Source of the DNA: Halosimplex halophilum
GTDB taxonomy: Archaea > Halobacteriota > Halobacteria > Halobacteriales > Haloarculaceae
DNA length: 64,000 nt
Reading direction: 5' to 3'
NCBI RefSeq assembly: GCF_004698125.1
Contig: NZ_ML214297.1
Location: 2,020,891 to 2,084,890, forward strand
Shown: positions 17,593-34,742 of the stretch, piece after piece
Layout: each line of letters opens with the position of its first letter
How positions within the stretch are numbered: position 1 is the first letter of the stretch
Translations under genes and position numbers: made by a program
The notes under the pieces: generated by a model
Seen by the model: the letters and a program-made list of their open reading frames with translations, nothing else
Database searches by the model: none
What the model was told of the DNA's origin: nothing

Positions 17593-18909
17593 ATGGACAG
17601 CGAGCGCCCCAACGTGTTGTTCGTCTGCGTCGACGCGCTGCGGAGCGACTTCGCCTTCGGCGACTACGGGGCCGACAAGCCCCTCTTCGAGTTCCTCGAA
17701 CGCGAGGGGACGGCCTTCGACACGATGGTCGCCGCGGCGTCGTCGACGACGCCGTGCGTCGCCAGCTACATGACCGGCACCTACCCGCCCGAGCACGGCG
17801 TCCTCTCGCTGCGGGACTTCTCGCTCTCCGACGGCGTCACGACGCTCGCCGAGGCGTTCGACGCCGCCGGCTACGACACGTCGGCGTCGGTCACCGGCCC
17901 GATCACCGACGACACCGGCCTCGACGCGGGCTTCGACCGCTACGACTACCGCGAGCGCGACACCACCGTCTACACCGACTGGTTCGACGAGTACCGGCGC
18001 GAGCTCGCCGAGGCCGAGGGGCCGTGGTTCAGGTACCTCCACCTCTGGGAGGCCCACGTCCACAAGGACCTGCCGCCGGACGCCGACGACGACGAGATCG
18101 ACTACGACGCGGCCGTCCGCGGCGTCTTCGAGCAGCTCCAGCGCCTCCTGGAGGTCGTCGACCTCTCGGAGACGGTCGTGGCGGTCACCGGCGACCACGG
18201 CGAGGCGTTCCGCGACGGCACCTGGCGCCACCGCGCCTCTATCGTCGGGTTCAACCAGGTCCCGATCCCCTTCACCGACAAGCGCACGCGCAACGTCCGC
18301 AGCGACGTGTACGACCAGTACCTCCGCCCGCGCGGCATCGAGACCGAGGAGTGGTACAACTCCCTGCGGAAGGCCAGCGCGACCGAGTTCCCCAACGCCT
18401 TCCACCGCATCGGCCACGGCTACCACGTCTACGACTTCCTCACGCGGGTCCCCTTCGCCGTCGCCGGCCCCGGGATTCCCGCCGAGGGCCGCGTGACCGA
18501 CCAGGTCCGCTCGGTCGACATCTTCCCGACGCTGCTCGACGCGGCCGGCGTCGACCGGCCCGCCGACGTGTCCGGCCAGGACATCCTCTCGGAACCGATC
18601 GAACACCGGCCGGCGCACGTCCGCGCGGTCGGCGCCTCCGGCGAGCGCGAGCGGTGGCTCGACGGCGTCCGCTACGACGGCTGGAAGTACGTCCAGGGCC
18701 GCGACCGCGAGCTGTGCCAGCTGTTCGACCTCGAATCGGACCCGAAGGAGCTGGAGAACGTCGCCGACGACCACCCCGAGGTCGTCGAGCGACTGCGCGA
18801 CATCGTCGACGAGCACGTCGCCCGCGAGCGCCAGCTGGAGACGGCGTCGGTCTCCGAGGGCGCCGAACAGCGGATGACCAGCCGGCTCGAAGACCTGGGC
18901 TACCTGTAA
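17593..18909 (+). CDS. AlkP-superfamily sulfatase-like hydrolase or phosphotransferase
   Basis: 438 residues from the ATG at 17593, without signal peptide. Metal ligands are visible in NVLFVCVDALRSDF (near residue 7-18) and VTGDHGEAF. Where sulfatases have Cys/Ser-x-Pro-Ser-Arg this protein has STTPCVASYMTG, so a Thr probably replaces the formylglycine Cys, which points to phosphate or phosphodiester chemistry rather than sulfate-ester cleavage. The C-terminus is TSRLEDLGYL, matching the end of the AlkP protein at 33120-34742. It sits between flippase and beta-helix genes, so a glycan or phosphoglycan substrate is likely by context. Confidence 0.82.
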   Translation: MDSERPNVLFVCVDALRSDFAFGDYGADKPLFEFLEREGTAFDTMVAAASSTTPCVASYMTGTYPPEHGVLSLRDFSLSDGVTTLAEAFDAAGYDTSASVTGPITDDTGLDAGFDRYDYRERDTTVYTDWFDEYRRELAEAEGPWFRYLHLWEAHVHKDLPPDADDDEIDYDAAVRGVFEQLQRLLEVVDLSETVVAVTGDHGEAFRDGTWRHRASIVGFNQVPIPFTDKRTRNVRSDVYDQYLRPRGIETEEWYNSLRKASATEFPNAFHRIGHGYHVYDFLTRVPFAVAGPGIPAEGRVTDQVRSVDIFPTLLDAAGVDRPADVSGQDILSEPIEHRPAHVRAVGASGERERWLDGVRYDGWKYVQGRDRELCQLFDLESDPKELENVADDHPEVVERLRDIVDEHVARERQLETASVSEGAEQRMTSRLEDLGYL

Positions 18910-19077: not shown

Positions 19078-20493
19078 CTACCGCGGACAGCCGATCGTCG
19101 GGTCGGACGGCTGCTTCGCGCCGTAGTGGTTGGTGTCGAAGTTCAGGTTCTTGAACTCGTTCGAGTGGGGCTGGATGATCGACTCCGTGCCCCGTCCCGG
19201 CGCCGGTTTCTTCGGGTTGTGGAACCAGTTGTGGTGGATGTCCGCGATATCGTCGGGGACTCCGCGGATGCTGACGTGGGACTCGGGGTCCTCCCCGGAG
19301 TTGAGATGTTTCGTCGGGACGAACGTGTTGTGGTGGATCTCGAGGGTCGCGCCGCCCGGGCGGTGGGTCCCGACCTGGTAGGCGATGGCGTCCTCGCCGA
19401 AGTGGTTGTAGCGCACCTCGTAGCCGGCGGTGCCCTCGTTGGCGACGGAGTGGCGGTTGAGGTTGAAGCGGTTGTACTCGACCAGCGTACTGCCGCCGCC
19501 GATACAGACGATGCCGTAGCCGAGCCCGTCCATCGCGTTGGTGTGGATGTGCGAGTGGTGGATCCGGGCCGAGTGCAGCAGTTTCACGCCCGAGTAGCTG
19601 AACCCGGAGATCTCGACGTTGTCGATCTCGCAGCCCTTGCCCTTGACCGTCACGCCGCTGTGAACCGGGCGGTCGTACTCGACGTACTCGTCGATCGAGC
19701 CGGTGACCCGCAGGCCCGTGATCCGGACCTGGTGCTCGGTGTGGAGCGGGCCCTCGCCGTGGACCTCGTCGGCGCGGATCTCCCCGCCCTTCGCCCCGTC
19801 GATGCCGCGGTTCGAGGCGAGCGTCACGCCCGCGGGGACCGTCAGCTCCCGGTCGGGGACGTTGATGCTCGCGTCGGGCGCGACGTACACCACGTCGCCG
19901 CTTGACGCGCTGTTCAGCGCCGATTCGAGTTCGCTCAGCGTCGAGACGACCGTGGTGGCGGCCGACTGCGGGACCGCGTCGGGGTAGCCGTCGCCGCCGC
20001 CCAGCACGTCGCTCGCCGCGGGCAGCGACTGGACGGTCTTCCCCTTCGCGACCGCACCGGGGTCGACGCGCGTCCCGTCGATTCGGACCTCGAAGTCGCC
20101 GCTCGTCGGCGAGAACGACGTGATCCGGCCCTGGAACGTGTAGGTGTCGCGCCCCCACGAGCCGACCGCGCCGGTCGCGGTCTGGGTGCCGTCGCCGTTC
20201 TCCGCGACCGTGTCGTTGCCCTCGGCGTCGCCGCGGACCGGTTCGACCGCACCGGTCGCGGTGAACTCGTAGTCGACCGCCGCCGAGCCGGTGCTGTCGA
20301 TCTCGATCCGGCGGCGACCGCCCGACCCCTGCGCGGCCCGCCCGCCCCGCGCGAGCAGCGGCGCCCCCACTGCGGCCGCGGCCGCTGTCAGGAACGACCG
20401 TCGCCCGAGCCCGCCCGAACGCCCCGGTAGGCCGCGGTTACGGTCGTCTCGCCCTTCGTCGTCCGTCGGTTCGCTATGGTTTCCGAACACCAT
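19078..20493 (-). CDS. Tat-exported right-handed beta-helix protein (paralogue 1)
   Basis: 471 residues from the ATG at 20493, chosen because a TATA-like box lies 28 nt upstream and GRRSFLTAAAAAVGAPLLARGG then forms an N-terminal Tat signal. Residues about 60-150 are one copy of a beta domain (VDYEFTATGAVEP, DTYTFQGRITSF, FEVRIDGTRVD). Residues about 165-471 are a right-handed parallel beta helix of pectate-lyase type (PDRELTVPAGVTLASNRGIDG, HSHIHTNAMDGLGYGIV, RYNHFGEDAIAYQVGTHRPG, IHHNTFVP). It is a close paralogue of the 20835-23138 product. A polysaccharide lyase or glycan-binding role on the surface is plausible but unproved. Confidence 0.85.
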   Translation of the reverse strand: MVFGNHSEPTDDEGRDDRNRGLPGRSGGLGRRSFLTAAAAAVGAPLLARGGRAAQGSGGRRRIEIDSTGSAAVDYEFTATGAVEPVRGDAEGNDTVAENGDGTQTATGAVGSWGRDTYTFQGRITSFSPTSGDFEVRIDGTRVDPGAVAKGKTVQSLPAASDVLGGGDGYPDAVPQSAATTVVSTLSELESALNSASSGDVVYVAPDASINVPDRELTVPAGVTLASNRGIDGAKGGEIRADEVHGEGPLHTEHQVRITGLRVTGSIDEYVEYDRPVHSGVTVKGKGCEIDNVEISGFSYSGVKLLHSARIHHSHIHTNAMDGLGYGIVCIGGGSTLVEYNRFNLNRHSVANEGTAGYEVRYNHFGEDAIAYQVGTHRPGGATLEIHHNTFVPTKHLNSGEDPESHVSIRGVPDDIADIHHNWFHNPKKPAPGRGTESIIQPHSNEFKNLNFDTNHYGAKQPSDPTIGCPR

Positions 20494-20834: not shown

Positions 20835-23138
20835 TCAGGGACAGCCGATGTCGTCGTCGGACGGCTCGTCGGCACCGTAGTGGTTGTTCCGGTAGTCGAG
20901 GTTCGTGAACTCCTCGACGTGGGGCTGGATGATCGACTCGGTGCCCCGGCCCGGCGCCGGTTCCTGCGGGTTGTGGAACCAGTTATGGTGGATGTCGGCC
21001 ACGTCGTCGGGGACCCCACGGATACTGACGTGGGACTCGGGGTCCTCCCCGGAGTTGAGGTGCAGGGTGGGGACGAACGTGTTGTGGTGGATCTCGAGGG
21101 TCGTCCCGCCCGGGCGGTGGGTCCCGACCTGGTAGGCGATGGCGTCCTCGCCGAAGTGGTTGTAGCGCACCTCGTAGCCCGCGTAGCCGCGACTGGCGAC
21201 GGAGTGGCGGTTGAGGTTGAACTCGTTGTACTCGATCAGGGTGTCGCCGCCCTCCTGGTTGCAGACGATGCCGTAGCCGAGCCCGCCCATCGCGTTGGTG
21301 TGGATGTGCGAGTGGTGGACGTAGGCGGGTTCCTGGAGCTTGACGCCGCCGTAGCTGAACCCGGAGATCTCGACGTTGTCGACCTCGCAGCCGGTCCCCT
21401 TGACCGTCACGCCGCTGTGGACCGGGCGGTCGAACTCGACGTACTCGTCGATCGAGCCGGTGACCCGCAGGCCCGTGACGCGCACGTCGTCTTCGGTCTG
21501 GAGCGGTCCCTCGCCGTAGACCTCGTCGGCGCGGATCTCGCCGCCGGGGGCGCCGTCGATACCGCGGTTCGAGGCCAGGGTCACGCCCGCGGGGACCGTC
21601 AGCTCCCGGTCGGGGACGTTGATGCTCGCGCCCGGTTCGACGTACACCACGTCGCCGCTAGACGCGTCGTCCAGCGCCGATTCGAGTTCGCCCCGCGTCG
21701 AGACGACGGCGTCGGCCTCCGACTGGGGGACGGTCCCCGAGTACCCCTCGCCGCCGCCCACGACGGCGGTCGGTTCCGGCGCCTCGTACTGGCTCAGGTC
21801 GATCGCGTCGCCGTCCACCCGCACTTCGGCGTGGTCGACGTCCGGCCCGAACGTCAGCAGCTCGCCGCGGAACCGGTAGGTGTCGCCGTAGCCGTTGCCG
21901 GTGTAGCCGTCGGCGCGCCAGGTGCCGTCGCCGGTCTCGGTGACCGAGTCGTTGTCGCCGGCGGCGTTCTCCTCGGCGTCGGTGACTCGCGTGATCTCCC
22001 CGGTGGTGGTGAACGCGTAGTCCAGTTCCGAGGGGTCCTCCGTGGTGAGCACCTCGATCGTGCGTTGCTCCGGTCGGAACTGTTCGAGGTCGACGGCGCT
22101 GCCGTCGACGCGCACCTCCGCGTAGTCCGTCACGGGGCCGAAGTCGGTCAGTTCCCCCTCGAAGGTGTAGGTGTCGCCGTAGCCGTTGCCGGTGAAGCCG
22201 TCGGCGGTCCAGGTCCCGTCGTCGTTCTCGGTGACCGAGTCGTTGTCGCCGGCGGCGTTCTCCTCGGCGTCGGTGACTCGCGTGATCTCCCCGGTGGTCG
22301 TGAAGGTGTAGTCCAGTTGCGAGGGGTCCTCCGTGGTGAGCACCTCGATCGTGTGTCGCTCGGGTTCGGAGTCGGACGCGGACACGAACCGACTCAGGTC
22401 GACGGCGCTGCCGTCGACCCGGACCTCGGCGAAGTCCTCGACCGGACCGAAGTCGGTGAGGTCGCCGTCGAAGTAGTAGGTGTCGCCGTAGCCGTTGCCG
22501 GTGTAGCCGTCGGCGGTCCAGGTCCCGTCGTCGTTCTGCGAGACGCTGTCGTTGTCGCCGGCGGCGTTCTCCTCGGCGTCGTAGTTCGGTTCGATCTCGC
22601 CGGTCGTCGTGAAGGTGTAGTCCAGCTCGGAGGGGTCCTCCGTGGTGAGCACCTCGATCGTGTGCTCGTACTCGGCGACGAGGTCGTCGACGGTGACGGC
22701 CTCGCCGTCGAGGTAGAGCTCGTAGGCGCCCGTCGCGGAGAAGTCGACGACGCGACCGGTGACGGTGTAGGCGTCGCCGAAGCCGTTGCCGGTCGTGCCG
22801 GTCGCGGTCCAGGTCCCGTCGTCGTTCTCGACGACGGCGTCGTTGCTTTCCGCGGAGTTGCGCCCGTTCCCGGTGTCCGGGGTGATCTCCCCGGTCGCCG
22901 TGAACTCGTAGTCGACCGCGAGGTCGCCCGTCTCGGTCGTCTCGCCCGTCGAGACGATCTCGAGGTGGCGCGTCGCCGGCGCGCCGGCGGCCTCGCCGCC
23001 GAACAGCGCGCCGGCCGCCGCGGCCCCCGCCCCGATCTTCAGGAACGAGCGACGGTCGAACCCCTCGCCCGGTGGTAGCCGGTTGCGCCGAGTTTCCTCG
23101 CTCGTACTATCCGGTTCGTTCTGGTTACCGTTCACCAT
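20835..23138 (-). CDS. Tat-exported beta-helix protein with four tandem beta domains (paralogue 2)
   Basis: 767 residues. The N-terminus has a Tat signal DRRSFLKIGAGAAAAGALFGG (about 28-48). Four copies of a domain of about 95-100 residues follow (about 57-155, 160-262, 264-358, 361-455), each with LDYTFTTTGEI, DSVTENDDGTWTADG and GYGDTYTF...AEVRVDGSAVDL. Copies 2-4 begin TIEVLTTEDPS. Residues about 465-767 are a beta helix nearly identical in pattern to paralogue 1. Copies 2-4 are also alike at the DNA level with periods of 291 and 309 bp, a sign of recent tandem duplication. The domain is unnamed here; surface glycan binding would fit. Confidence 0.87.
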   Translation of the reverse strand: MVNGNQNEPDSTSEETRRNRLPPGEGFDRRSFLKIGAGAAAAGALFGGEAAGAPATRHLEIVSTGETTETGDLAVDYEFTATGEITPDTGNGRNSAESNDAVVENDDGTWTATGTTGNGFGDAYTVTGRVVDFSATGAYELYLDGEAVTVDDLVAEYEHTIEVLTTEDPSELDYTFTTTGEIEPNYDAEENAAGDNDSVSQNDDGTWTADGYTGNGYGDTYYFDGDLTDFGPVEDFAEVRVDGSAVDLSRFVSASDSEPERHTIEVLTTEDPSQLDYTFTTTGEITRVTDAEENAAGDNDSVTENDDGTWTADGFTGNGYGDTYTFEGELTDFGPVTDYAEVRVDGSAVDLEQFRPEQRTIEVLTTEDPSELDYAFTTTGEITRVTDAEENAAGDNDSVTETGDGTWRADGYTGNGYGDTYRFRGELLTFGPDVDHAEVRVDGDAIDLSQYEAPEPTAVVGGGEGYSGTVPQSEADAVVSTRGELESALDDASSGDVVYVEPGASINVPDRELTVPAGVTLASNRGIDGAPGGEIRADEVYGEGPLQTEDDVRVTGLRVTGSIDEYVEFDRPVHSGVTVKGTGCEVDNVEISGFSYGGVKLQEPAYVHHSHIHTNAMGGLGYGIVCNQEGGDTLIEYNEFNLNRHSVASRGYAGYEVRYNHFGEDAIAYQVGTHRPGGTTLEIHHNTFVPTLHLNSGEDPESHVSIRGVPDDVADIHHNWFHNPQEPAPGRGTESIIQPHVEEFTNLDYRNNHYGADEPSDDDIGCP
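21925..22665. repeat. Tandem DNA repeats encoding the beta domains
   Basis: The segment starting GAGGGGTCCTCCGTGGTG occurs at 22030, 22321 and 22630, with long near-identical flanks between copies. Spacings are 291 and 309 bp (97 and 103 codons), so the frame is kept. Confidence 0.85.
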
Positions 23139-23507: not shown

Positions 23508-25016
23508 TCACTCCCCGTCGGCGGCCGGCGTGGTGTTCCCGCCCGGTCGCAGGGTCTCGATGGAGAGGTTCCGGCGTTCGACGGCGGTGTTCTCCGTCTC
23601 GATCGGGCGGCCGGTCACCCGGATCGTCGAGCCGACGACGGTGCAGTTCTCGGAGTCGACGAGGACGATCCCGTGGCGGTCGGCGCCGGACTGCTCGATC
23701 CGGCAGTCGCGCAGGGTCGTCCCCGGGCGGTCGGCGATCTCGACGGCCGCGCCCCCGCTGGCGCTCCCGGTGACGGTGACGTCGTCGAAGGTGAGCGGCG
23801 CCCTCGACCCGCCGTTGCTGGCGTCGGTCGCGTCGATCGCGTTGAAGTCGTCGCGGTCGACCCTGATCGTCGTGTTCCGGACGACCGAGCTGCCGTGTTC
23901 GGGGTGGTAGGAGATCGCGCCGAACCCGGGGCCGGCGTTCTCGCCGATCCTGACCTCGCAGTTCTCGACCAGCTGGTCGCTGCGGGCGCGCAGCCGGATC
24001 CCGCGGACGTTGAGGTGGTGGTCCGAGGGGCTCGGGGGCACCTCGTCGACGACGACGAGCACGTCCTTGACCGTCGACCCGGTCGAGCCGATCCGGACGT
24101 TGGCGATGTTGTTGTTCTCGTAGCGGCCGCCCCGGACGTGGATGTCGCCGTTGTTGCCGGTGTACCCGTCGAGCGTCTGACCCGGCGCCGACGCGTACAG
24201 CCCGTTGTTCGGGAAGTTCGCGATCTCGCAGTCGCGGAAGGTCAGCGAGCCCGCGTGGTCCTTGCCGACGAAGATGCCGACGCCGTTGCCGCCGTCGTGG
24301 CCGCCGCCGCGGGCGACGACCCGCTCGACCAGCCCCTTCCCCCGGGGGTTTTGCACCTCGAACCGGTAGGCGACGTGTTTGCGCTCCGTGTTCCGGTCGG
24401 GCAGTTTCCCGTGGGTCCGGAGGTTCCGGGCGACGATGTTGCCCTCCGAGATGGTCCTGACGGCGCCGCCGACGCCGGACTCCGTGAAGTCGAACTCCAG
24501 GCCGTCGAGGAGGATGTCGCCCACCCCCCTGAAGTCGATGAAGTGGTTGCCGATCTCGTCGATCGGCCCGCTCGGGACGAGGACCGCTCGCTCGTGGGGG
24601 ATCGAGACGAGCCCGAACTCGGAGACGTCCTCGATCTCCATGTAGTCGAGCGCGTAGCGGCCGGCGGGGAAGTAGACGAGCGTGTCGTCGGCGATCGTGT
24701 CGGTGAGCACGTCGTTGACCGGCTCCTCTCCCTCCGGGTCGGCGCCGGCGTCGACGGCGTTGACGATCGAGTCGAACTGGTCGCCGTACTCGGCGACGAC
24801 CTCCGGGATCGGCGTCGCCGTCGGCGTGCCGGTTGGCGTCGGCTCGGCCGTCGGGGTCGGCGACTCGGTCAGTCTGACGGGGCCGGCCCGCGTCCCCGCC
24901 CCCTCCCGGTCGGTCTGCTCGCGATCGTTCGACCCACACCCGGCCGCGCCGACCCCCAGCGCGGCCGCTGCTGTCCCTCTGAGGAACCGTCGCCGTGACA
25001 GCCGATCGGGAACCAT
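23508..25016 (-). CDS. Tat-exported beta-helix lipoprotein
   Basis: 502 residues from the ATG at 25016, which places LSRRRFLRGTAAAALGVGAAGC at the N-terminus as a twin-arginine signal with lipobox Cys. A Thr/Pro linker (PTPTAEPTPTGTPTATPIP) follows. From about residue 80 comes a pectin-lyase-like helix: an N-terminal segment DTLVYFPAGRYAL typical of phage-tailspike/pectate-lyase-3 starts, then coils with HDGGNGVGIFVG, RDCEIANFPNNGLY and RYENNNIANVRI. It is unrelated in detail to the two beta-helix paralogues beside it. A surface-anchored polysaccharide-binding or cleaving protein is the likely type; no catalytic residues can be assigned. Confidence 0.83.
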   Translation of the reverse strand: MVPDRLSRRRFLRGTAAAALGVGAAGCGSNDREQTDREGAGTRAGPVRLTESPTPTAEPTPTGTPTATPIPEVVAEYGDQFDSIVNAVDAGADPEGEEPVNDVLTDTIADDTLVYFPAGRYALDYMEIEDVSEFGLVSIPHERAVLVPSGPIDEIGNHFIDFRGVGDILLDGLEFDFTESGVGGAVRTISEGNIVARNLRTHGKLPDRNTERKHVAYRFEVQNPRGKGLVERVVARGGGHDGGNGVGIFVGKDHAGSLTFRDCEIANFPNNGLYASAPGQTLDGYTGNNGDIHVRGGRYENNNIANVRIGSTGSTVKDVLVVVDEVPPSPSDHHLNVRGIRLRARSDQLVENCEVRIGENAGPGFGAISYHPEHGSSVVRNTTIRVDRDDFNAIDATDASNGGSRAPLTFDDVTVTGSASGGAAVEIADRPGTTLRDCRIEQSGADRHGIVLVDSENCTVVGSTIRVTGRPIETENTAVERRNLSIETLRPGGNTTPAADGE

Positions 25017-25122
25017 TTGCTTGTTCGTAGCCCTTCGGCACATTTGTTATGTCCGCGATAATTTCCGTAGGAACCGTTTACCCGCCGATATCGGGGACGG
25101 GCGTCGGCAGCGGCGGCCGCCG

Positions 25123-26202
25123 TCACTGCCGCTCGGCGACCGGCCGCGGGGCGTCGACCTCGGCGGACCGGCGGGAGGGGGCGGCGTCCGCGAGCTGCGA
25201 GCGGATCACGTCAGTCGTGTCGACGCAGTCGGCGAGCAGCCGCTCGCGGCGGCCCGCCCAGTCGATCTCGTCGTGGTCGGCGAGGATCGAACTCGCCCGC
25301 CGCAGCGCCTCGGCCTGGCGGTCCTCGCCGGTCGTGTTGACGACGAGGCCGTACTCCGACTCCAGCGCCTCCAGATAGCCGAGTTCGAGCGTCGAGGCGT
25401 AGACGGCGGGCGTCCCCAGGACGGCCGACTCGGCGGCCATCGTCGCGCTCTCGCCGACGAACAGATCCGCGTGGGCCAGCAGGTGGTGCATGTCCTCGGG
25501 CGGGACGGTCGCCCGCCGGTCGGCGAGGTCCGGCGGCAGGTCGGCCTCGGCGGTGATCACCACCCGCGCGCCGTGGCGTTCGAGCTCGTCGACGACCGCG
25601 CGGGCGTCCGCGAAGCCGCCGCCGCCCACGTCGTGCAGCGCCTCCCAGGCGACCAGCCGCAGGACGACGAGCCGCTGGTCCGGGTCGATCCCGGCGTCGG
25701 CGACGACCGACGGGTCCGGGTCGAACCGGTCGGGGTGGAGGTAGGCGAGTTCGTGGAACCCGGGGTAGGTGACCTGCTTGTCGCCGAGGTCGTCGGTGTA
25801 CGCCTCGGGCGTGCAGACCCGGTCGGCGAACGGGAACGTGAGCCGGTTCCCCAGCGTCGCGTGCTCGGTGTCGGTGAACACGACCGACCGGCAGGAAAGC
25901 AGCGTCGCGACGTGGGCGACCGCGGGCTCGCCGATGGCGGTCAGCACGTCCGGGTCCGCCCGGCGGGCCCGCCGGAGCAGGGCGAGCTCGTAGCGCAGCT
26001 GCGACTTCGCCAGCGAGGGCAGCGAGTCGCTGGTCGGCGCGAGCACCTCGTAGTCGATGCCGTAGCGCTCAAGCAGGTCGGCGGCCAGCTCCACGTCGCG
26101 CATGAACACCGAGACCTCGTGGCCGGCCGCCTCCAGCTCCCCGATGGCCTCGCGGAAGAAGTGGACGTGGGCCGGGTGCTGGATGGTCACGAAGACCCGC
26201 AT
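25123..26202 (-). CDS. DUF354 family glycosyltransferase-like protein
   Basis: 359 residues. MRVFVTIQHPAHVHFFREAI and HEVSVFMRDVELAADLLERYGI are the DUF354 (COG1817) signature; the fold is GT-B like MurG or UDP-GlcNAc 2-epimerase. The C-terminal half has DLFVGESATMAAESAVLGTPAVYAS, the donor-site loop seen in such folds. The start codon directly follows the stop of the UDP-sugar dehydrogenase gene (TGA then ATG), so the two are co-transcribed and probably act in sequence on a nucleotide sugar. Confidence 0.87.
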   Translation of the reverse strand: MRVFVTIQHPAHVHFFREAIGELEAAGHEVSVFMRDVELAADLLERYGIDYEVLAPTSDSLPSLAKSQLRYELALLRRARRADPDVLTAIGEPAVAHVATLLSCRSVVFTDTEHATLGNRLTFPFADRVCTPEAYTDDLGDKQVTYPGFHELAYLHPDRFDPDPSVVADAGIDPDQRLVVLRLVAWEALHDVGGGGFADARAVVDELERHGARVVITAEADLPPDLADRRATVPPEDMHHLLAHADLFVGESATMAAESAVLGTPAVYASTLELGYLEALESEYGLVVNTTGEDRQAEALRRASSILADHDEIDWAGRRERLLADCVDTTDVIRSQLADAAPSRRSAEVDAPRPVAERQ

Positions 26203-27459
26203 TCAGACCTCCCCGACGCCCTCGTAGCGCAGTCCCGCCGCCTCGACGGCCTCGGCGTCGAAGACGTCGCGGCCGTCGACGACCGCCGACGCGCCCAGCT
26301 CGGCGAACCGCTCGGGGTCCAGGTCGGCGAACTCGGTGTGGTCGGTGACGACGACGACGGCGTCGACCGGCTGGTACGGCGACGCGACCGACGACGCCTC
26401 GTCGAGGACCGGGTCGTAGGTCTCGACGGTCACGTCGTAGTCGGCCAGCCCCTCCCGGATCGGGAAGTAGGGGCTGTTGCGGTCGTCGGCGAGGTCGGGC
26501 TTGAACGCGCGGCCGAGCAACAGCGCGGTCGCGTCCTGCGGGAGGACCCGCTCGCGCGTCAGCGCGTCGACGGTCATGTCCGCGACGTACTCGGGCATCT
26601 GGTTGTTGATCGTCCGCGCGACGGTCAGCAGCTCGTGGGTGAACCCGGCGTCCTCGGCCTCGCCGATGAGGAGGTGGGGGTCGACGGGGATGCAGTGGCC
26701 GCCGACGCCGGCGCCCGGCTCGAAGCCCATGAAGCCGAAGGGCTTGGTGCTCGCCGCGTCGATGGCCGCGCGGGCGTCCACGTCCAGCGAGTCCAGCGAG
26801 ACGGCGATCTCGTTGGCGAACGCGATGTTGATGTCGCGGAAGGCGTTCTCGACGATCTTCGACACCTCCGCGACCTCGACGCTCTCGACCGGGTGGACCT
26901 CGGCGTCGAGCAGGCGGTCGTAGAACGCGGTCGCCCGCTCGCGCCCCTCGTCGGTGAGCGCGCCGACCACGCGCGGGATGGCCTCCAGCGGCCACGCCTC
27001 GTTGCCGGGGTCGACCCGCTCGGGCGCGGCCGCGAGGTAGTAGTCGGTCCCCGACTCCAGCCCGTAGGTGTCGAAGACCTCGGCGATCTCCCGTCGGACG
27101 GTCCCCGGCGGAATGGTCGACTCGACGACGACGAGACAGGGGTCGGCGGCCTCGCGGCTCCGCAGCCCCTCGCCGATGGTCTCGCTGGCGGCCCGGAGCG
27201 GCCCGAGGTCGACCCGCTCGGCCCCGTCGACCGGCGTCGGGACCGTGACGACGCAGGTGTCCGCCTCCGCGGCGACCGCCGCGCCGTCCGTCGTCGCCGA
27301 GACCCGCTCGTCCTCGTCGACCGCCAGGTACTCCCCGTCCTCGATCCGCTCGACGACCGCCGGATCCACGTCGACGCAGGCGACCGACCGGCCGCGCTCG
27401 ACGGCCAGCTCCGCGACCTCCTTGCCGACGAACCCGACGCCGTAGATGCCGATGCTCAT
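26203..27459 (-). CDS. UDP-glucose/UDP-N-acetylmannosamine 6-dehydrogenase family protein
   Basis: 418 residues. MSIGIYGVGFVGKEVAELA is the NAD-binding glycine loop; VVESTIPPGT lies between the domains; GVGGHCIPVDPHLL carries the catalytic Cys; LLGRAFKPDLADDRNSP begins the C-terminal UDP-binding domain. The enzyme makes a UDP-uronic acid by two NAD-dependent oxidations. It resembles the WecC/UDP-ManNAc group more than UDP-glucose dehydrogenases, but specificity is not certain. It is the first gene of a two-gene operon with its own promoter. Confidence 0.9.
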   Translation of the reverse strand: MSIGIYGVGFVGKEVAELAVERGRSVACVDVDPAVVERIEDGEYLAVDEDERVSATTDGAAVAAEADTCVVTVPTPVDGAERVDLGPLRAASETIGEGLRSREAADPCLVVVESTIPPGTVRREIAEVFDTYGLESGTDYYLAAAPERVDPGNEAWPLEAIPRVVGALTDEGRERATAFYDRLLDAEVHPVESVEVAEVSKIVENAFRDINIAFANEIAVSLDSLDVDARAAIDAASTKPFGFMGFEPGAGVGGHCIPVDPHLLIGEAEDAGFTHELLTVARTINNQMPEYVADMTVDALTRERVLPQDATALLLGRAFKPDLADDRNSPYFPIREGLADYDVTVETYDPVLDEASSVASPYQPVDAVVVVTDHTEFADLDPERFAELGASAVVDGRDVFDAEAVEAAGLRYEGVGEV

Positions 27460-27925: not shown

Positions 27926-29173
27926 GTGAGCCGGCCCGGCGGGGACGGCGACCGCGGGTCGGTGCTGCTCGTCCACCACCGGGCGATCGCCTCGCCGTAC
28001 AGCGCGACCGTCCCGCACTACCTCGCGCGGGAACTCGCCGACTCCGGGACCGTCCACGTCCTCAGTCGGCGCCGCCCCGACGGCGCCGGCGACGGCGACG
28101 GCGGGTTTCCCGACGACGTGGTCCACCACGAGGTCGGGACCGGACAGGTGCCGATCCTCTCGGGGCTGCTGTTCGTCGTCGTCTCGACGCTGTACGCCGC
28201 CGCCCTGGGCGCCCGCCACCGCTTCGACGCCGTCTACGCCTTCCAGCAGACGATCATCCAGGGGTGGCCGGCCGCCCGCGCCGGCGGCTCGCGGTTCGTC
28301 GTCGGCCTCCAGTCGGTCCCCGTCCGCCAGAAGCGGGACCTCTCGGACGCCGCCCACGGCCGGCTCCCGCTCCGGAAGCGCGTCCGCGTGGCGCTTCTGG
28401 CCCGGTACGCCTGGGCGGTCGGCCGGCTGCTCGACCGGACCGACGAGGTCGTCTGCCTGACCGACGGGATCCGCGATGCGACGGAACTGGAGTACGGCGT
28501 CGACCTCTCGGGCGCCCACGTCATCGGGATGGGCGTCGACACCGACCGCTTCGCCGTCGAGTCGACGCGCGAGCCCGCCCGCGGTCCGGACGACACCTGG
28601 GTAGTCACCTACGTCGGCTCGATCGGCCCGCCGCGCGGGCTGGAACACGTCCTCGACGCCGTCGCCGAGAGCGACCGCGACGTCGAGTTCCGCGTCGCCG
28701 GCGGCGGCGGCGACGACTACATGACCTCCCTGCGCGAGCGGGCCCGCGACCTCGGGATCGACGACCGGGTCACCTGGCTCGGGATCGTCCCCCACGAGGA
28801 GGTCCCCGAAGTCCTCGCCGACGCCGACGTCGCCGTCTCCCCGCTGGCCGACATCGAGTCCTACCGGATCAGCTTCCCCGCGAAGCTCCTGGAGTACATG
28901 GCCGCCGGGACCCCCGTGGTCGCGACCGACATCCCCGCCCACCGGCGGCTGGTCGAGCCGAGGGAGAACGGACTGCTGTACGACGGGAGCGCCGACGGCC
29001 TCGTCGACGCGCTCGACGACGTGATCGGCGGCGAGGTCGACGCCCGGGCGCTGGGCCGGGCGGCCCGCGCCACCGCGGAGGCCCACGACTGGGCGGCCGT
29101 CGTCGCGGAACACGAGGCGGTGCTGTTCGACCGGACCGTCAGGCGACCGCGAGCGCAGCCGGTGCCGGCGTAG
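27926..29173 (+). CDS. Glycosyltransferase family 4 (GT-B fold)
   Basis: 415 residues from a GTG at 27926; no ATG lies in a sensible place, and a strong Shine-Dalgarno site precedes this GTG. The N-terminal domain starts SVLLVHHRAIASPYSATVPHYLARELA; the donor domain contains VVTYVGSIGPPRGLEHVLDA, DDRVTWLGIVPHEEVPEVLADADVAVSP and FPAKLLEYMAAGTPVVATD, standard GT4 elements. A hydrophobic segment near residue 73-92 (SGLLFVVVSTLYAAALGA) could touch the membrane. The donor is unknown; its place next to the UDP-uronate gene makes a uronic-acid transferase a reasonable guess. Confidence 0.86.
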   Translation: MSRPGGDGDRGSVLLVHHRAIASPYSATVPHYLARELADSGTVHVLSRRRPDGAGDGDGGFPDDVVHHEVGTGQVPILSGLLFVVVSTLYAAALGARHRFDAVYAFQQTIIQGWPAARAGGSRFVVGLQSVPVRQKRDLSDAAHGRLPLRKRVRVALLARYAWAVGRLLDRTDEVVCLTDGIRDATELEYGVDLSGAHVIGMGVDTDRFAVESTREPARGPDDTWVVTYVGSIGPPRGLEHVLDAVAESDRDVEFRVAGGGGDDYMTSLRERARDLGIDDRVTWLGIVPHEEVPEVLADADVAVSPLADIESYRISFPAKLLEYMAAGTPVVATDIPAHRRLVEPRENGLLYDGSADGLVDALDDVIGGEVDARALGRAARATAEAHDWAAVVAEHEAVLFDRTVRRPRAQPVPA

Positions 29174-29287: not shown

Positions 29288-30721
29288 GTGTCATCGAAAG
29301 GCGAATCACTTCCATCTGTCGCCGATCGAACGACGGGGGCGTCCGGAGGCGGTCGCTCGCCGGTCGTCACCGTCGACTCGGTCACCGCCGACGGCCGCCG
29401 CGTCGAGTCGACCGTCTCCTACGACGACGAACTGCGGCCGTTCTTCGACGACTCCCCGTTCTACGTCGAGTACGGCGTCGACGTCTCCGACCTGCCCGAG
29501 TCGATCCTGACGATCCCGGTGCTGGCACACGTCTGCCCGGTGGCGTGGGCGGTCGGCGCAGACGTGCGGGTGCCGTCCGTCGACCGACGCTTCCTCGACG
29601 CTCTCGAACGCGTCGGCAACACGCTCTGTGATATGTACCCGTTCATGGAGGGTGGGCGAGTCATCGCCGAGCGGGCGCCCGAGTGGGACGAGACGGCGGT
29701 CGGTCGGGACCGAGCGTCCCCGTCGAGCGTCCCCGAGTCGACCGGCGAGGCGGGTATGCTGTTCACGGGCGGGGTGGACTCGCTGGCGACGTACGTCCGC
29801 CACCGCGAGCAGGAGCCGACGCTGATCACCGTCCAGGGGTGGGTCGTCGGCGCCGACGAGACCGAGCGGTGGCGCCGGCTCCGCGAGCGGACGGAGCGGT
29901 TCGCCGAACGGTTCGGCGTCGACGCGGCGTTCGTCCGTTCGAACATGCTCGAGTTCCTCGACACCGCGCTGCTCGACGCCCACTACAAGCCCTACCACGA
30001 CGGCGCGTGGTACAGCGCCGTCGGCTGCGGCCTCGGCATGCTCGGCCTCTGCGCGCCGCTCGCGGTCGCCCGGGGGATGGGACGGATCTACATCGCCGCG
30101 TCCTTCTGGGAGGGCATGGAGGCGCCGTCGATGTTCGACGACTGGGACGGGCCAGCCATGCCGTGGGGCTCGCACCCGGACATCGACGACGGGATCGCGT
30201 GGGCCGACACCGAGGCGGTCCACGACGGGTTCGAACTCGACCGTCAGGGCCGGATCGACGCCATCGCAGCGTACGTCCGGGAGCACGACCCGACCCTGCC
30301 CGTGTACTCCTGTTCGGCCTCCAACGAGGCCGAGAACTGCGGGCGCTGCGAGAAGTGTCTCCGCACCGCGATGGGCCTCGCGCTGGCGGGGCTGGACCCC
30401 GCCGACCACGGCTACGACCTCGACCGTCGCTCGTTCGCCCGCGCGGTCCGGAAGTTCGAGGCCGGAGAGTGGCTCGACGACCACCACTCACCGTACTACT
30501 GGCAGCAGTTCCAGGAGCGGCTCCCGGCGGACGCCGACCTGCCGATGGACGGGTCCGACGCGTTCGTGCGCTGGTTGCTCGACGCCGACATCGAGTCGAT
30601 GGCCGGGTCGCCGACCCGCGACCGGCTCGTGCGCACCGCCGCCAGACACACGCCCTACCCCGTCTACGCCAGGGTCTATCCGGTCTACGGCGCTCTGAAA
30701 GAGCGCCTCCGCGGGGACTGA
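29288..30721 (+). CDS. PP-loop ATPase with QueC-like zinc motif
   Basis: 477 residues from a leaderless GTG. FTGGVDSLATY at 159-169 is a PP-loop (normally SGGxDS), the ATP-pyrophosphatase signature of QueC, NAD synthetase and asparagine synthetase-like enzymes. Cys342, 351, 354 and 357 (C-x8-C-x2-C-x2-C, in SCSASNEAENCGRCEKC) resemble the zinc site of QueC (C-x7-C-x2-C-x2-C). The first 150 residues are a separate domain without clear relatives. The protein is twice the length of QueC and no other queuosine gene is near, so it probably adenylates a carboxyl group in the glycan pathway. The ATP-grasp gene converges from the other side. Confidence 0.8.
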   Translation: MSSKGESLPSVADRTTGASGGGRSPVVTVDSVTADGRRVESTVSYDDELRPFFDDSPFYVEYGVDVSDLPESILTIPVLAHVCPVAWAVGADVRVPSVDRRFLDALERVGNTLCDMYPFMEGGRVIAERAPEWDETAVGRDRASPSSVPESTGEAGMLFTGGVDSLATYVRHREQEPTLITVQGWVVGADETERWRRLRERTERFAERFGVDAAFVRSNMLEFLDTALLDAHYKPYHDGAWYSAVGCGLGMLGLCAPLAVARGMGRIYIAASFWEGMEAPSMFDDWDGPAMPWGSHPDIDDGIAWADTEAVHDGFELDRQGRIDAIAAYVREHDPTLPVYSCSASNEAENCGRCEKCLRTAMGLALAGLDPADHGYDLDRRSFARAVRKFEAGEWLDDHHSPYYWQQFQERLPADADLPMDGSDAFVRWLLDADIESMAGSPTRDRLVRTAARHTPYPVYARVYPVYGALKERLRGD

Positions 30722-30768
30722 CCGCCGAGAACTGACCGGCAGAGACTGACCGACGCGACCGACGCCGC

Positions 30769-31956
30769 TCACCGGAGCGCGTTCAGCGCGTCGCGGACGA
30801 ACGGTCGCGGGTCGTCGAGGCGCAAGTAATCGAAGCGAGGGTGTTCGCGGAGCGACCCGGCGACCGCCGAGAACGCCTCGCGGCGGCCCGGCCGCTCGAC
30901 CAGTTCCTCCTCGTCGAACAGGACGCTGTGGAGGTAAGAGAGCTCGCCGCGGACGAGGTGGCCCGCCGTGCCCACCTCGTAGTCGTCGACGATCCGGTCG
31001 CCGTCGCCGCGGGCGAGCAGCCAGTAGTCGTGGGGGAAGTCCGCGCCCGCCCGCACGGAGAACGGCAGCGACGACCACAGCCGCGGGTTGATCTCCATCA
31101 GCCGGAACTCGCCGTCCTCGTCGCGCAGGAACTCGACCATCGCCAGCCCGTGCCACTCCAGCTCGTCCAGCAGGGCGCGGCCGGACTCGCCGAGTTCGGG
31201 GATCGAGACGGACTCGCGGAAGGAACTGGGGCCGCCGGCGTAGTTGTACGCGCGGACCTGCCGGTGCTGGAAGGTCCTGACGGGTTCGCCCTCGTCGTAC
31301 AGCGCGAAGAAGCCGTACTCGTCGGTGGTCGGGAGGAACTCCTGGACGATCGGCGTGTGGCCGTTCCGGCGGCGGATCGTCTCCACGTCCGGTTTGTTCC
31401 CGTTGAGGTACTGCGTCGAGGGCGGGTCCCGGGAGCGCCCGGACGGCATGTCGTCGACGTAGGCGTCGGCGAGCAGGGTGTACCGGCCCTTGACGACCCA
31501 CTCGCGGTCCCAGTCGTCGACCTCGTCGAGCAGGCGGGTGTCGGGGACGGCGACGCCCGCCCGCTCGGCGGCGTCGAACAGCTCGACGCGGTCCTGGACC
31601 CGGCGCAGCCCCTCGGCGGTCGGCCACAGCGTCTCGACGTGGGGCTCGAACTCGTCGCGGTACCGCGCGAGGACGTACACGTCCTCCTCGCGGACGGGCA
31701 GGATCGTCAGCACGTCCGGCCGCATCGCGAGCGCGAGCAGGGCGTCCTTGTAGGCGACCAGGTCCTCGGCGGGGTCGGGGACGACGACCGTCTCGCCGGC
31801 GTAGCGCGACCGGAAGGCGGCGGCGTCCTCGTCCTCCGAGACGACGACGGTGTGGATGCCGCGGCTCCCCAGCGAGCGCACGCAGGCGACGCTGCTCGGC
31901 GCGGCGATCGCCGGGACGACGACCGCGCTCGGCCCGTCGGCTGGATCGATGCTCAT
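30769..31956 (-). CDS. ATP-grasp carboxylate-amine ligase
   Basis: 395 residues from the ATG at 31956. An ATG 39 nt upstream is rejected because it would overlap the TATA-like box. Residues about 10-100 form the pre-ATP-grasp domain (AVVVPAIAAPSSVACVRSLG), followed by WVVKGRYTL with the ATP-contacting Lys, PIVQEFLPTTDEYGF, and GEFRLMEINPRLWSSLPF carrying the Mg-binding Glu and Asn. Such enzymes join a carboxylate to an amine through an acyl-phosphate. It resembles carbamoyl-phosphate-synthase-like ligases in polysaccharide clusters. Substrates are unknown; the neighbouring FemAB-like gene suggests an amino-acid or amide modification. Confidence 0.85.
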   Translation of the reverse strand: MSIDPADGPSAVVVPAIAAPSSVACVRSLGSRGIHTVVVSEDEDAAAFRSRYAGETVVVPDPAEDLVAYKDALLALAMRPDVLTILPVREEDVYVLARYRDEFEPHVETLWPTAEGLRRVQDRVELFDAAERAGVAVPDTRLLDEVDDWDREWVVKGRYTLLADAYVDDMPSGRSRDPPSTQYLNGNKPDVETIRRRNGHTPIVQEFLPTTDEYGFFALYDEGEPVRTFQHRQVRAYNYAGGPSSFRESVSIPELGESGRALLDELEWHGLAMVEFLRDEDGEFRLMEINPRLWSSLPFSVRAGADFPHDYWLLARGDGDRIVDDYEVGTAGHLVRGELSYLHSVLFDEEELVERPGRREAFSAVAGSLREHPRFDYLRLDDPRPFVRDALNALR

Positions 31957-31982
31957 CTGGCCGCCCGTTGTCGAGGGCGTAC

Positions 31983-31993
31983 CGTTAGTATTC
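31983..31993 (-). promoter_or_regulatory. TATA-like box of the ATP-grasp gene
   Basis: GAATACTAAC (minus strand) is about 28 nt before the ATG at 31956 and decides that start. Confidence 0.55.
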
Positions 31994-32028
31994 ACCGCCG
32001 GACGGCGAGAAATGGGTGCCTACTGCCG

Positions 32029-33123
32029 TCACTTCCGGTCGAACAGACCCGCCGCGACGCCCGAAAGCAGGCCCGACCGGCCGTCGGTCCCGTCGCCGGC
32101 CATCGACAGCCGCCGGCGTTCGAACTGCTCGTAGGCCCAGCTGGCGGCGTCGAACAGCATCGGGTTGCTGTGGACCCGGTAGCTCGTCTCCAGGTCGGGG
32201 GCGAACTTCGCCTTGTACTCGTTGATCCGCTCGGCGCCGGCGCCGACGAGGTCGTAGCGGCTCCGCCCGTCGGCCAGCGCGTCGGTCATGACCCGCCAGT
32301 CCAGCAGGTCGTTGACCGGCAGCGGCACGTCCCGTTCCGGCCGGACGCCGCCGATCCAGCGGTAGACCGTGTCGTCGTCGGCGAGGGCCAGGATCCCGCC
32401 GACGAACTCCCCGTCGACCCGGCAGACGTACGGGCGGAGCGCCCCGTCGGGGAGAGCCCCGACCAGGTCGTCGACGAACGCCGTCGGCATCGACACCGGC
32501 CGGTCCTGCTCGCGGTAGCGGCGCTCGACCTGGTCGAGGATGCGCCCCACCGCCCGCTCGCCCTCCGCGCGGACGGCGTAGTCGACGTCGTAGCTGGCGT
32601 CGATGTTCGACCGGGCGTCGCTGCTGAACCGGTCGAGCAGGTCCGCCTCGTCGGTCAGCTCGACGACGTACGTGTACTGTGGTTCGACCTCGTAGCCGGC
32701 CCACTGGAACGGCCGCACGTCGTCGTAGCCGGGGCCGGTGTCGATGCGGGTGACCGCCGGGTCGATCGTCTCCGCGACGTACTCGAAACAGCCGTCGAGC
32801 AGCCCCTGGTGGCGCCGCTCGGCCTTCCGCCGGGAGAGCTTCGCCATGTTCAGCCGCGCGGGGCCGAGGTACTCCGCCCACGCGGCCGGCGGCGGCGAGA
32901 ACGCTGCCCGCATCGGCCCCTTCTCCACCTCGAACAGGGGCAGGAGTCCGACGGGCTCCTGGCCCTTGTAGCCGACCAGCGCGTGCAGCTCCGCGCCGGT
33001 GTAGTCGGCGAGCCGCTCCAGGACGGCCGAGCGGTGGAACACCGTCGCCTCCGGCGACCGGTCGACCGCGCGGTCCCACTCGTCGAACTCGTCGGCGTCG
33101 AGCCGTGTCACGTCGATACTCAT
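32029..33123 (-). CDS. FemAB-like GNAT acyl/aminoacyl transferase
   Basis: 364 residues with a duplicated GNAT fold of the FemAB/COG2348 type: VFHRSAVLERLADYTGAELHALVGYKGQEPVGLLPLF in the first half, and PYVCRVDGEFVGGILALADDDTVYRWIGG plus YDLVGAGAERINEYKAKFAPDLE in the second. The last pattern is typical of FemAB-like proteins of exopolysaccharide and PEP-CTERM/exosortase clusters. Bacterial FemAB enzymes move an aminoacyl group from tRNA to a lipid-linked acceptor. The gene starts inside the stop of the upstream AlkP gene (ATGA overlap), so it is translationally coupled. The acceptor is inferred to be a glycan or its carrier. Confidence 0.85.
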   Translation of the reverse strand: MSIDVTRLDADEFDEWDRAVDRSPEATVFHRSAVLERLADYTGAELHALVGYKGQEPVGLLPLFEVEKGPMRAAFSPPPAAWAEYLGPARLNMAKLSRRKAERRHQGLLDGCFEYVAETIDPAVTRIDTGPGYDDVRPFQWAGYEVEPQYTYVVELTDEADLLDRFSSDARSNIDASYDVDYAVRAEGERAVGRILDQVERRYREQDRPVSMPTAFVDDLVGALPDGALRPYVCRVDGEFVGGILALADDDTVYRWIGGVRPERDVPLPVNDLLDWRVMTDALADGRSRYDLVGAGAERINEYKAKFAPDLETSYRVHSNPMLFDAASWAYEQFERRRLSMAGDGTDGRSGLLSGVAAGLFDRK

Positions 33124-34742
33124 CGCTCGATGTACCCCAGGTCTTCCAGCCGCGACTCGACCGCCCCCTCGCGGGCTGTCGCCTCGATCCGTTCGGTGTC
33201 CGCGTACTCGCGGGCGCCGGCGTCGTCGACGACCGGCAGGACGTCCCCGTCCATCCGCTCGGCCCGCGGCAGGCCGAACAGCGCCAGGAGCGTCGGCGCC
33301 ACGTCGTAGATGTGCGCGCCCGACAGCGACGCGCCGGTGTCGACGCCCTCGCCCGCGACCGCGACGATCCCCTCGCGCTTGTGGTTCCACGGCTCGGACG
33401 GCTCGCCGAAGGCGTCGTCGGCCAGCCGCGCGGAGAGGAACTGCTCGAACTCGTGGGGGACGAGGACGATGTCGACCGCTTCCCCGGCGGCGGGCCCCTC
33501 GAAGTACGCCTCCCGGGGCTCGACGGCCTCGAAGACCGGGTCGCCGTCCGGCGTCTCCACGCCCGAGAGCAGGTCGATCAGCTCCGATCGGACCCGCTCG
33601 TACTCGTCGGGCGGGACCACCCCGTCCGGCTCGCGCCCCTCGACGTTGATCCGGACGCCGAGTTCGCTCCGCGAGCGCACGAACGCCGTCGAGGCGGGGA
33701 AGTCGACCTGTTCGGCGCCGGACTCGGCGACCGACGACGGGACGACCCGGCCCACCGCGTCGGTCAGGCCGACGGCGTCGAGGACGCGGACGACCCGCTG
33801 GGTTGTCACGCCCGCGCGGGCCAGTCCGGCCATCGCGGCGTCGAGGGCGCTCCGGTCCACGTCGCCGGTCTCGCCGCGGCGCAGCTTCGAGTCGCGGACG
33901 GTCGCCCACGTCGGCATCCCCTCGCCGCCGCGTTCCGTCTCGACGTAGCCGGCCTCGCGGAGGAACTCGTTGACGCGGAACTCGTAGTCGTCGTACTCGC
34001 CCATGCCGTGGTCGCTGACGACGACGACGGTGTCCGGGTCGACCCGGTCCAGAACGCGGTCGAGCTGTTCGTCGACGGCCCCGTAGACGGCCTCGACGGC
34101 CGCCCACTCGTCGGGGTAGCGGTGGAAGACGGTGTCGACCACCTGGAACTGGAGGAACCCGAAGTCGGGGTCGAACCGGTCCGCGAGGTAGGTGAACGCG
34201 TCGCCGCGCATCCGGACGACCTCGCGGTGGGCGGCGTAGCCGGTGTCGGCGCCGTCGCCCTCGGCGTCGGGGTACACCCGGTACTCCCCGACGGCGTCGC
34301 GCACGTCGTCGAGCAGCCCCTCGGGGTGGCAGGGCGGGTCCTCCGGCGCGGTGTAGCCGGGGACCAGCGCGCCGTCGAACGACCGGGGCGGGTGAGTCAC
34401 CGGGACGTTGACGACGACGCTCCGGTGGCCCGCGTCGGCGAGGTACTCCCAGACCGGCCGCTCGCGCAGGCGCGTGGCGTCGACCACGTCCCAGTCGTAG
34501 CCGTCGAACGCGAGGAAGTCGAAGAGTCCGTGCTTGCCGGGGTTCGTACCGGTGTACAGCGAGGGCCACGCGCTCGGCGTCCACGGCGGGATCCCCGACC
34601 GCAGCGGCCCGCTCGCCCCCCTGTCGAACAGCGATTCGAGCGTCGGTACCTGTCCCCCCTCGAACAGCGGCGTCAGGACCCGTCTGCACGCCGCGTCGAG
34701 CCCGACGACGAGGCAGTCCATGCCGTCTCGGTCTGCTACCAT
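33120..34742 (-). CDS. AlkP-superfamily phosphodiesterase/nucleotide pyrophosphatase-like enzyme
   Basis: 540 residues, no signal. MDCLVVGLDAACRRVL holds the first metal Asp; PPWTPSAWPSLYTGTNPGKHGLFDF has the nucleophile Thr; DTVVVVSDHGMGEYDD holds the second metal group, and GAHIYDVAPTLLALFGLP the C-terminal His. This matches the type I phosphodiesterase/AglZ-like group seen in glycan clusters. Its end, ESRLEDLGYIER, repeats that of the 17593-18909 protein. The ATG at 34742 has a TATA-like box 28 nt upstream. It leads a two-gene operon with the FemAB-like gene. Confidence 0.86.
   Translation of the reverse strand: MVADRDGMDCLVVGLDAACRRVLTPLFEGGQVPTLESLFDRGASGPLRSGIPPWTPSAWPSLYTGTNPGKHGLFDFLAFDGYDWDVVDATRLRERPVWEYLADAGHRSVVVNVPVTHPPRSFDGALVPGYTAPEDPPCHPEGLLDDVRDAVGEYRVYPDAEGDGADTGYAAHREVVRMRGDAFTYLADRFDPDFGFLQFQVVDTVFHRYPDEWAAVEAVYGAVDEQLDRVLDRVDPDTVVVVSDHGMGEYDDYEFRVNEFLREAGYVETERGGEGMPTWATVRDSKLRRGETGDVDRSALDAAMAGLARAGVTTQRVVRVLDAVGLTDAVGRVVPSSVAESGAEQVDFPASTAFVRSRSELGVRINVEGREPDGVVPPDEYERVRSELIDLLSGVETPDGDPVFEAVEPREAYFEGPAAGEAVDIVLVPHEFEQFLSARLADDAFGEPSEPWNHKREGIVAVAGEGVDTGASLSGAHIYDVAPTLLALFGLPRAERMDGDVLPVVDDAGAREYADTERIEATAREGAVESRLEDLGYIER

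Follow-up and report, generated by a model that had tools for sequence, protein, structure and literature searches.

A candidate pathway for amide decoration of surface glycans encoded by PP-loop, ATP-grasp, FemAB and AlkP genes in Halosimplex halophilum

Introduction

The window analysed here is a stretch of 64,000 nucleotides from the haloarchaeon Halosimplex halophilum (assembly GCF_004698125.1, contig NZ_ML214297.1, positions 2,020,891 to 2,084,890). Within 5.5 kb it carries genes for four proteins: a PP-loop ATP pyrophosphatase of the QueC superfamily, an ATP-grasp carboxylate-amine ligase-like protein, a FemAB-type transferase and an AlkP-superfamily phosphodiesterase (hereafter the PP-loop protein, the ATP-grasp protein, FemAB and AlkP). 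A first-pass annotation had predicted these four activities, and all four genes were recovered at the predicted positions by our own gene calling and family searches (Table 1), inside a glycan cluster that spans approximately 11.3 to 34.7 kb of the window. By analogy with the bacterial Wbp/Vim pathway, we put at roughly 55% the probability that the four genes are part of a surface-glycan locus (S-layer N-glycan or exopolysaccharide) whose products attach amide-bonded groups to amino-uronic sugars. A more specific proposal is tentative: a new QueC-superfamily family, present in haloarchaea, Bathyarchaeota and several bacterial phyla, may amidate glycan carboxylates, and its haloarchaeal version, together with AlkP, FemAB and the ATP-grasp protein, may constitute a Wbp/Vim-like N-aminoacyl uronamide pathway, possibly tethering surface proteins.

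The Wbp/Vim products of Porphyromonas gingivalis and Tannerella forsythia are 2-N-seryl, 3-N-acetylglucuronamide and 2-N-glycyl, 3-N-acetylmannuronic acid, which serve as linking sugars of the type IX secretion system (T9SS); VimA matches TIGR03019, the AsnB-like WbpS makes the uronamide, and archaea are not mentioned (PMC7468200). If our proposal holds, archaea too would modify their surface sugars by tRNA-dependent aminoacylation and by amidation, processes linked in bacteria to the anchoring of proteins, and the QueC scaffold would gain a further role besides nucleobase synthesis and protein deazaguanylation. The FemAB–AlkP pair, with FemAB in about half of the sampled haloarchaeal genomes, would then be a defined target for genetics and glycan mass spectrometry. 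Our literature search found no description of haloarchaeal PP-loop/FemAB clusters, DUF362 clusters or DUF6395.

Results

FemAB and AlkP

Co-translation of FemAB and AlkP had been proposed, and the two genes do overlap by four bases (ATGA) at their junction, CGATGAGT; the AlkP gene starts at 34742 or 34721. Both proteins lack a hydrophobic segment and retain their active-site residues. AlkP scores 130 bits against PF01663 (cut-off 23), and its residues D9, T48, D196, H200, D237, H238 and H447 are conserved in 54 sequences; from knowledge of the superfamily we take their roles to be catalytic, as metal ligands or nucleophile. The AlkP family shares an invariant C-terminal tail, RLxxLGY, with which the sulfatase-family protein of the window and an unrelated protein of 89 amino acids in Halorientalis (L049:11606-11872) also end.

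A structural search, suggested as a check in the first-pass annotation, was performed against solved structures with AlphaFold2 models of FemAB and the PP-loop protein. The FemAB model (predicted local distance difference test score, pLDDT, 82.6) adopts the tandem-GNAT Fem fold. The 22 best matches all belong to the aminoacyl-tRNA type, as whole proteins or as MprF/LPG-synthase domains, and include Sbb17, Sba18, FemX, FemA, MprF and A-PGS, with template modelling (TM) scores of up to 0.67 (query) and 0.79 (target), and CoA-dependent GNATs rank below them. Sba18 acts on the amino sugar streptothrisamine. From FemX/FemA, MprF and Sba18/Sbb17 the window protein differs in being only 12–17% identical and in being paired with AlkP. 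Its match to TIGR03019 reaches 27 bits, against a curated score of 260. Sequence searches of the PDB with FemAB, AlkP and the ATP-grasp protein returned weak general matches only; in the ATP-grasp protein, residues K156, E283, E288 and N290 are conserved.

The adjacency of FemAB and AlkP is far above chance. At the thresholds used, FemAB was found in 160 and AlkP in 151 of 292 haloarchaeal genomes. At least 101 of the 132 FemAB places listed have, no more than 3 kb away, an AlkP gene whose product is at least 53% identical to that of the window, where 0.4 would be expected, and at least 67 overlap AlkP or lie within 10 bp of it. At PP-loop loci, FemAB is found within 3 kb of every AlkP of the window's subfamily (15 of 15; at least 50% identity) and of none of the other subfamily (27–37% identity); the window's own AlkP, also paired with FemAB, is printed in the latter group for want of a self-hit.

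The PP-loop protein

Its fold match and motifs place the PP-loop protein in the QueC superfamily, where it belongs to none of the named families. The best solved fold for its model (pLDDT 79.5) is QatC (9y01_B; E = 1.9e-6, probability 1.00, 420 columns), with modest TM scores of 0.38/0.41; further PP-loop enzymes come next, QueC and Cap9 among them. With these three enzymes it shares the PP-loop Rossmann fold and an SGGxDS-type loop, and with QueC the zinc motif C(x)8CxxCxxC (PMC13329287, PMC13279940). The loop takes the variant form TGGVDS (in LFTGGVDS), which is conserved in the family, and the four cysteines (C342-x8-C351-xx-C354-xx-C357) are invariant in 89 sequences. W241, P297, D300, HD312-313, RQ319-320 and N350 are also invariant or nearly so, and the family has a signature of its own, PWGSHPxID, HD and RQ. 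The protein resembles QatC in overall fold and in having extensions at both termini; the QatC signature is missing.

Several features set the protein apart from QueC. It scores 15 bits against the Pfam QueC model (PF06508), below the cut-off of 22, it has the signature and glycan context described here, and a separate true QueC is encoded elsewhere in the genome (243 bits, C3:686625). The canonical QueC substrate motifs YxQxHxxE, VPxRN and YPDC (PMC13329287) are absent from the PP-loop alignment; YPDC and related motifs are present in the true QueC of Halosimplex. YPDC reads 7-deazaguanine in QueC and Cap9 (PMC13279940), and in a manual motif alignment its position corresponds to GSHPxID, in which x is variable and the Y and D have no conserved counterpart. 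Neither NCBIfam nor PADLOC gave a match, the PP-loop profile found none among PDB sequences, and a viral fold search returned phage QueC-type matches only.

Gene order and conservation

The PP-loop gene lies on the strand opposite to the other three and is convergent with the ATP-grasp gene; it is therefore a separate transcription unit and not in their operon. It perhaps shares a unit with the glycosyltransferase family 4 (GT4) gene 114 bases upstream on the same strand, an adjacency kept in all Halosimplex main loci. This GT4 gene and the nucleotide-sugar dehydrogenase and DUF354 genes, which had been named as neighbours, were confirmed.

The entire block is syntenic within Halosimplex, where the named relatives are H. 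pelagicum, H. aquaticum, H. carlsbadense and H. salinum and the eighth genome is a partial metagenome-assembled genome (MAG). The PP-loop gene (one or two tandem copies), ATP-grasp, GT4 and nucleotide-sugar dehydrogenase are all retained, and ATP-grasp adjoins the main PP-loop cluster in 7/7 genomes possessing that cluster. At the window site, FemAB–AlkP is present here and in H. salinum and absent in two species; in three others an HMGL-like (PF00682) gene adjoins the PP-loop gene at this position (L034:7395-8420, also L032 and L033) and may be an alternative accessory module.

The four activities had been described as rarely found side by side in archaea, which is incorrect for haloarchaea. 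H. salinum (L037/L053) has all four genes together as well, and so, in changed order, do Natronorubrum thiooxidans and N. sulfidifaciens (L071, L084); a MAG locus (L054) combines a PP-loop gene with two FemAB–AlkP units.

PP-loop neighbourhoods

Homologues of the PP-loop protein are found in Natrialbaceae, Haloarculaceae, Bathyarchaeota/Thermoproteota, Bacillota (Paenibacillus, Priestia and Pseudobutyrivibrio), Dehalococcoidia (Chloroflexota), Coriobacteriia, Alphaproteobacteria and Dependentiae, labelled hypothetical in the plasmid records examined. Neighbourhoods were counted within a 10 kb radius at 74 loci picked by the PP-loop gene alone. At least one of eight glycan-linked families is present at 54 of them and none at 20, counts that overstate independent events because most Natrialbaceae loci form a single synteny block. 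The families near the PP-loop gene are AlkP of either subfamily (45 loci), polysaccharide deacetylase (37), Gfo/Idh (33), epimerase (31), DUF362 (29), DUF354 (21), FemAB (13) and ATP-grasp (9).

Other lineages give independent support for the glycan context. Priestia plasmids carry UDP-sugar dehydrogenase, galU, a YheC/D ATP-grasp and pyruvyl transferase together with two tandem PP-loop genes; in Halorientalis an ATP-grasp gene adjoins the PP-loop gene; in Dehalococcoidia an Acetyltransf_6 gene lies 13 bp upstream of three tandem PP-loop genes; and a pyruvyl transferase is found near the PP-loop gene in Paenibacillus, one alphaproteobacterium, two archaeal MAGs and Pseudobutyrivibrio. The Priestia cluster also encodes a DUF6395 protein (L139:17621-18937), which may represent a related family, since PF19932 weakly matches the PP-loop family. 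Tandem or near-tandem PP-loop duplicates of two to three copies occur in unrelated lineages (L032, L034, L035, L037, L115, L126, L139), a repetition that suggests several related substrates per glycan.

Haloarchaeal Wbp-type operons

The analysis also covered 12 additional haloarchaea, selected by FemAB; those that have the FemAB–AlkP pair carry it mostly in glycan loci. At several of these it adjoins a complete or partial Wbp-type aminouronate operon with a hexapeptide acetyltransferase, a DegT aminotransferase, UDP-GlcNAc 3-dehydrogenase (NF040723), a nucleotide-sugar 6-dehydrogenase, the wecB 2-epimerase and an AglJ-like glycosyltransferase of family 2. The same loci hold a deacetylase that matches the VimE model best, at a score under the curated cut-off, and adjoins a second FemAB, so that Wbp enzymes, a VimE-like deacetylase and a VimA-like FemAB stand in one locus. 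A Wbp-type operon is also present in the window's genome itself, at C1:1.557-1.573 Mb, and includes an AsnB-like amidotransferase as well as a deacetylase.

As interpreted here, the archaeal and bacterial systems have in common a uronate-forming dehydrogenase, Wbp-type enzymes, an amine-freeing deacetylase, a FemAB-type protein that matches TIGR03019, an ATP-dependent amide-forming enzyme and an arrangement in surface-glycan clusters. The archaeal system differs in its dedicated AlkP partner and ATP-grasp ligase, in lacking a T9SS, in having a QueC-superfamily PP-loop enzyme beside the cluster where bacteria have the AsnB-like WbpS and, in the window's genome, in the absence of a VimE-like gene.

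Discussion

The idea of an amide- or amino-acid-decorated glycan, which the first-pass annotation put forward, is well supported by context when set beside the characterised Wbp/Vim model. The QueC-superfamily fold, the aminoacyl-tRNA-type FemAB fold, the uronate and glycan neighbours in several lineages and the Wbp/Vim precedent (PMC7468200) lend it contextual support; its substrate and product we infer. In the proposed pathway, the nucleotide-sugar dehydrogenase would supply the uronate, and FemAB would transfer an aminoacyl group from aminoacyl-tRNA to the free amine of an amino-uronate, as proposed for VimA after deacetylation by VimE. AlkP may act in the cytosol on a phospho-linked donor, acceptor or by-product. 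The PP-loop protein would adenylate the sugar carboxylate for amide formation with ammonia or an amine, the step of WbpS in Porphyromonas, and the ATP-grasp protein might join a second carboxylate to an amine. Glycosyltransferases and a flippase would then assemble and export the product.

Several observations weigh against this proposal. The FemAB–AlkP pair is not seen at the window site in five of the seven other Halosimplex genomes, three of which have the HMGL-like gene instead. No VimE-like deacetylase was found in the window's genome, and its Wbp operon lies approximately 490 kb from the cluster. When profiles of the PP-loop family and of Halosimplex QueC were compared, the match was weak (probability 2.4%, from shallow alignments), and the single Natrialbaceae block noted above reduces the number of independent neighbourhoods. 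Scattering of homologues away from glycan genes had been named beforehand as counter-evidence; it applies to some copies, the majority of loci having glycan families close by. A second Halosimplex PP-loop paralogue adjoins nadE/DUF58 genes outside a glycan locus, and Halomicrobium copies lie beside dapA/dapB/dapD (names of genes beside these off-glycan copies were read off the sequences, nadE by Pfam). This second paralogue (L039:8060-18199, L040) is approximately 50% identical and is also near an FkbM methyltransferase gene, with an ATP-grasp paralogue approximately 6.5 kb away.

It is conceivable, though unlikely, that only AlkP–FemAB, perhaps with the ATP-grasp protein, decorates amino sugars and that the PP-loop gene is separate and parked in variable glycan islands, its product being, for example, a WbpG-like amidotransferase that forms an acetamidino group on the N-acetyl group. 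In favour of this, WbpG is an amidotransferase of sugars that has the QueC fold (PMC13329287), the PP-loop gene runs opposite to the other three, and FemAB–AlkP pairs mostly occur without it (PP-loop in 14/96 of the family, set beside the FemAB count given above). Nevertheless, its cysteine motif is of the QueC type and not the CxxC(x)6CxC of WbpG (PMC13329287), no NCBIfam model matches it, the four genes reunite in Natronorubrum despite the changed order, FemAB and AlkP accompany it in the MAG locus, and in Dehalococcoidia it stands with an Acetyltransf_6 gene. We consider it very unlikely that the protein joins 7-carboxy-7-deazaguanine, or some other acid, to the N-terminus of a protein in a locus for defence or surface-protein modification, even though QatC, extensions at both ends included, is the best solved fold and QatC and Cap9 act on protein N-termini (PMC13279940). 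The locus has no PADLOC or QatC (NF041925) match and no recognised QatB-like neighbour, the family has no member among 50,697 phage records, two residues of the 7-deazaguanine-reading YPDC have no conserved counterpart, the neighbours are glycan and not defence genes, and a conserved MG(G/T)S partner was not seen. A QatC-like defence system was discarded for lack of PADLOC, phage or QatB support, and the deacetylase N-terminus MGSVV was dismissed as a Cap9-type target because it has no disordered tail.

Protein sorting had also been raised, and a decidedly improbable form of it is that the cluster makes a moiety to which an archaeosortase joins its cargo, as proposed for exosortase/FemAB clusters. 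FemAB is TIGR03019-like, and XrtA/PEP-CTERM clusters (TIGR03019 FemAB, TIGR03006 deacetylase, TIGR03108 amidotransferase) likewise combine a FemAB-like gene with a deacetylase, glycosyltransferases and an amidotransferase; the T9SS role of the Wbp/Vim sugars points the same way (PMC7468200). The archaeosortase is approximately 12–19 kb from a polysaccharide-deacetylase homologue in each of the eight Halosimplex genomes, and in the window's genome this deacetylase sits inside the Wbp-type operon with the AsnB-like amidotransferase (L168, G000:C1:1563000-1582999; archaeosortase G000:C1:1583127). Unlike in XrtA clusters, however, no exosortase or archaeosortase lies within 100 kb of the Halosimplex cluster: the single-copy archaeosortase shares a contig with the cluster in six genomes, at 110–630 kb, and is on a separate contig in H. 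salinum, and direct linkage was rejected for this distance. Among the neighbours of the four genes no PGF-CTERM cargo gene was seen, and FemAB is missing from half of the Halosimplex genomes, all of which have the archaeosortase. A role in protein anchoring may still be entertained by analogy with Wbp/Vim. Least probable of all is a chance neighbourhood in a variable genomic island with no joint pathway. The gene content of the 30.7–34.7 kb interval does differ between Halosimplex species, yet co-occurrence is repeated across families and domains, and for FemAB–AlkP the excess over expectation largely refutes chance.

Gene content of the window

Table 1
Genes of the glycan cluster in the window
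Product	Position	Strand	Basis
PP-loop ATP pyrophosphatase, QueC superfamily, unnamed family, 477 aa, N-/C-terminal extensions	29288..30721	+	motifs, AF2 (AlphaFold2) fold
ATP-grasp carboxylate-amine ligase-like, 395 aa	30769..31956	-	PRK06849/PRK12767, ATPgrasp_Ter similarity
FemAB-type tandem-GNAT transferase (VimA/TIGR03019-like; Acetyltransf_6), 364 aa	32029..33123	-	PF13480 E=3e-21
AlkP-superfamily type I phosphodiesterase, predicted cytosolic, 533-540 aa	33120..34742	-	PF01663 E=2e-37
GT4 glycosyltransferase	27926..29173	+	PF13692/PF00534
Nucleotide-sugar 6-dehydrogenase (UDP-uronate forming)	26203..27459	-	TIGR03026, 314.5 bits vs cut-off 189.8
DUF354 glycosyltransferase/2-epimerase-fold protein	25123..26202	-	PF04007 E=2e-15
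Tat-exported right-handed beta-helix lipoprotein	23508..25043	-	PF13229, TAT motif; conserved in genus
Tat-exported tandem-repeat protein; C-terminal region like beta-helix protein at 19078	20835..23138	-	TAT_signal; conserved in genus
Right-handed beta-helix protein, paralogue of C-terminal part of 20835-23138	19078..20370	-	PF13229 E=5e-8
Sulfatase-family protein	17593..18909	+	PF00884
Wzx-type flippase	15800..17224	-	PF13440/PF01943
GT4 glycosyltransferase	14491..15411	-	PF13692
Multi-pass membrane protein, weakly PMT-like	12485..14494	-	PF13231 E=0.0013
DUF1616 membrane protein	11287..12480	-	PF07760

The tandem repeats of the exported protein at 20835-23138 are approximately 100 amino acids each and precede its beta-helix-like end, and its shorter paralogue (19078-20370) adjoins it. 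Exported homologues of these two proteins flank the PP-loop gene in other Halosimplex, and in Natrialbaceae the PP-loop gene is flanked by Tat-exported proteins from another family.

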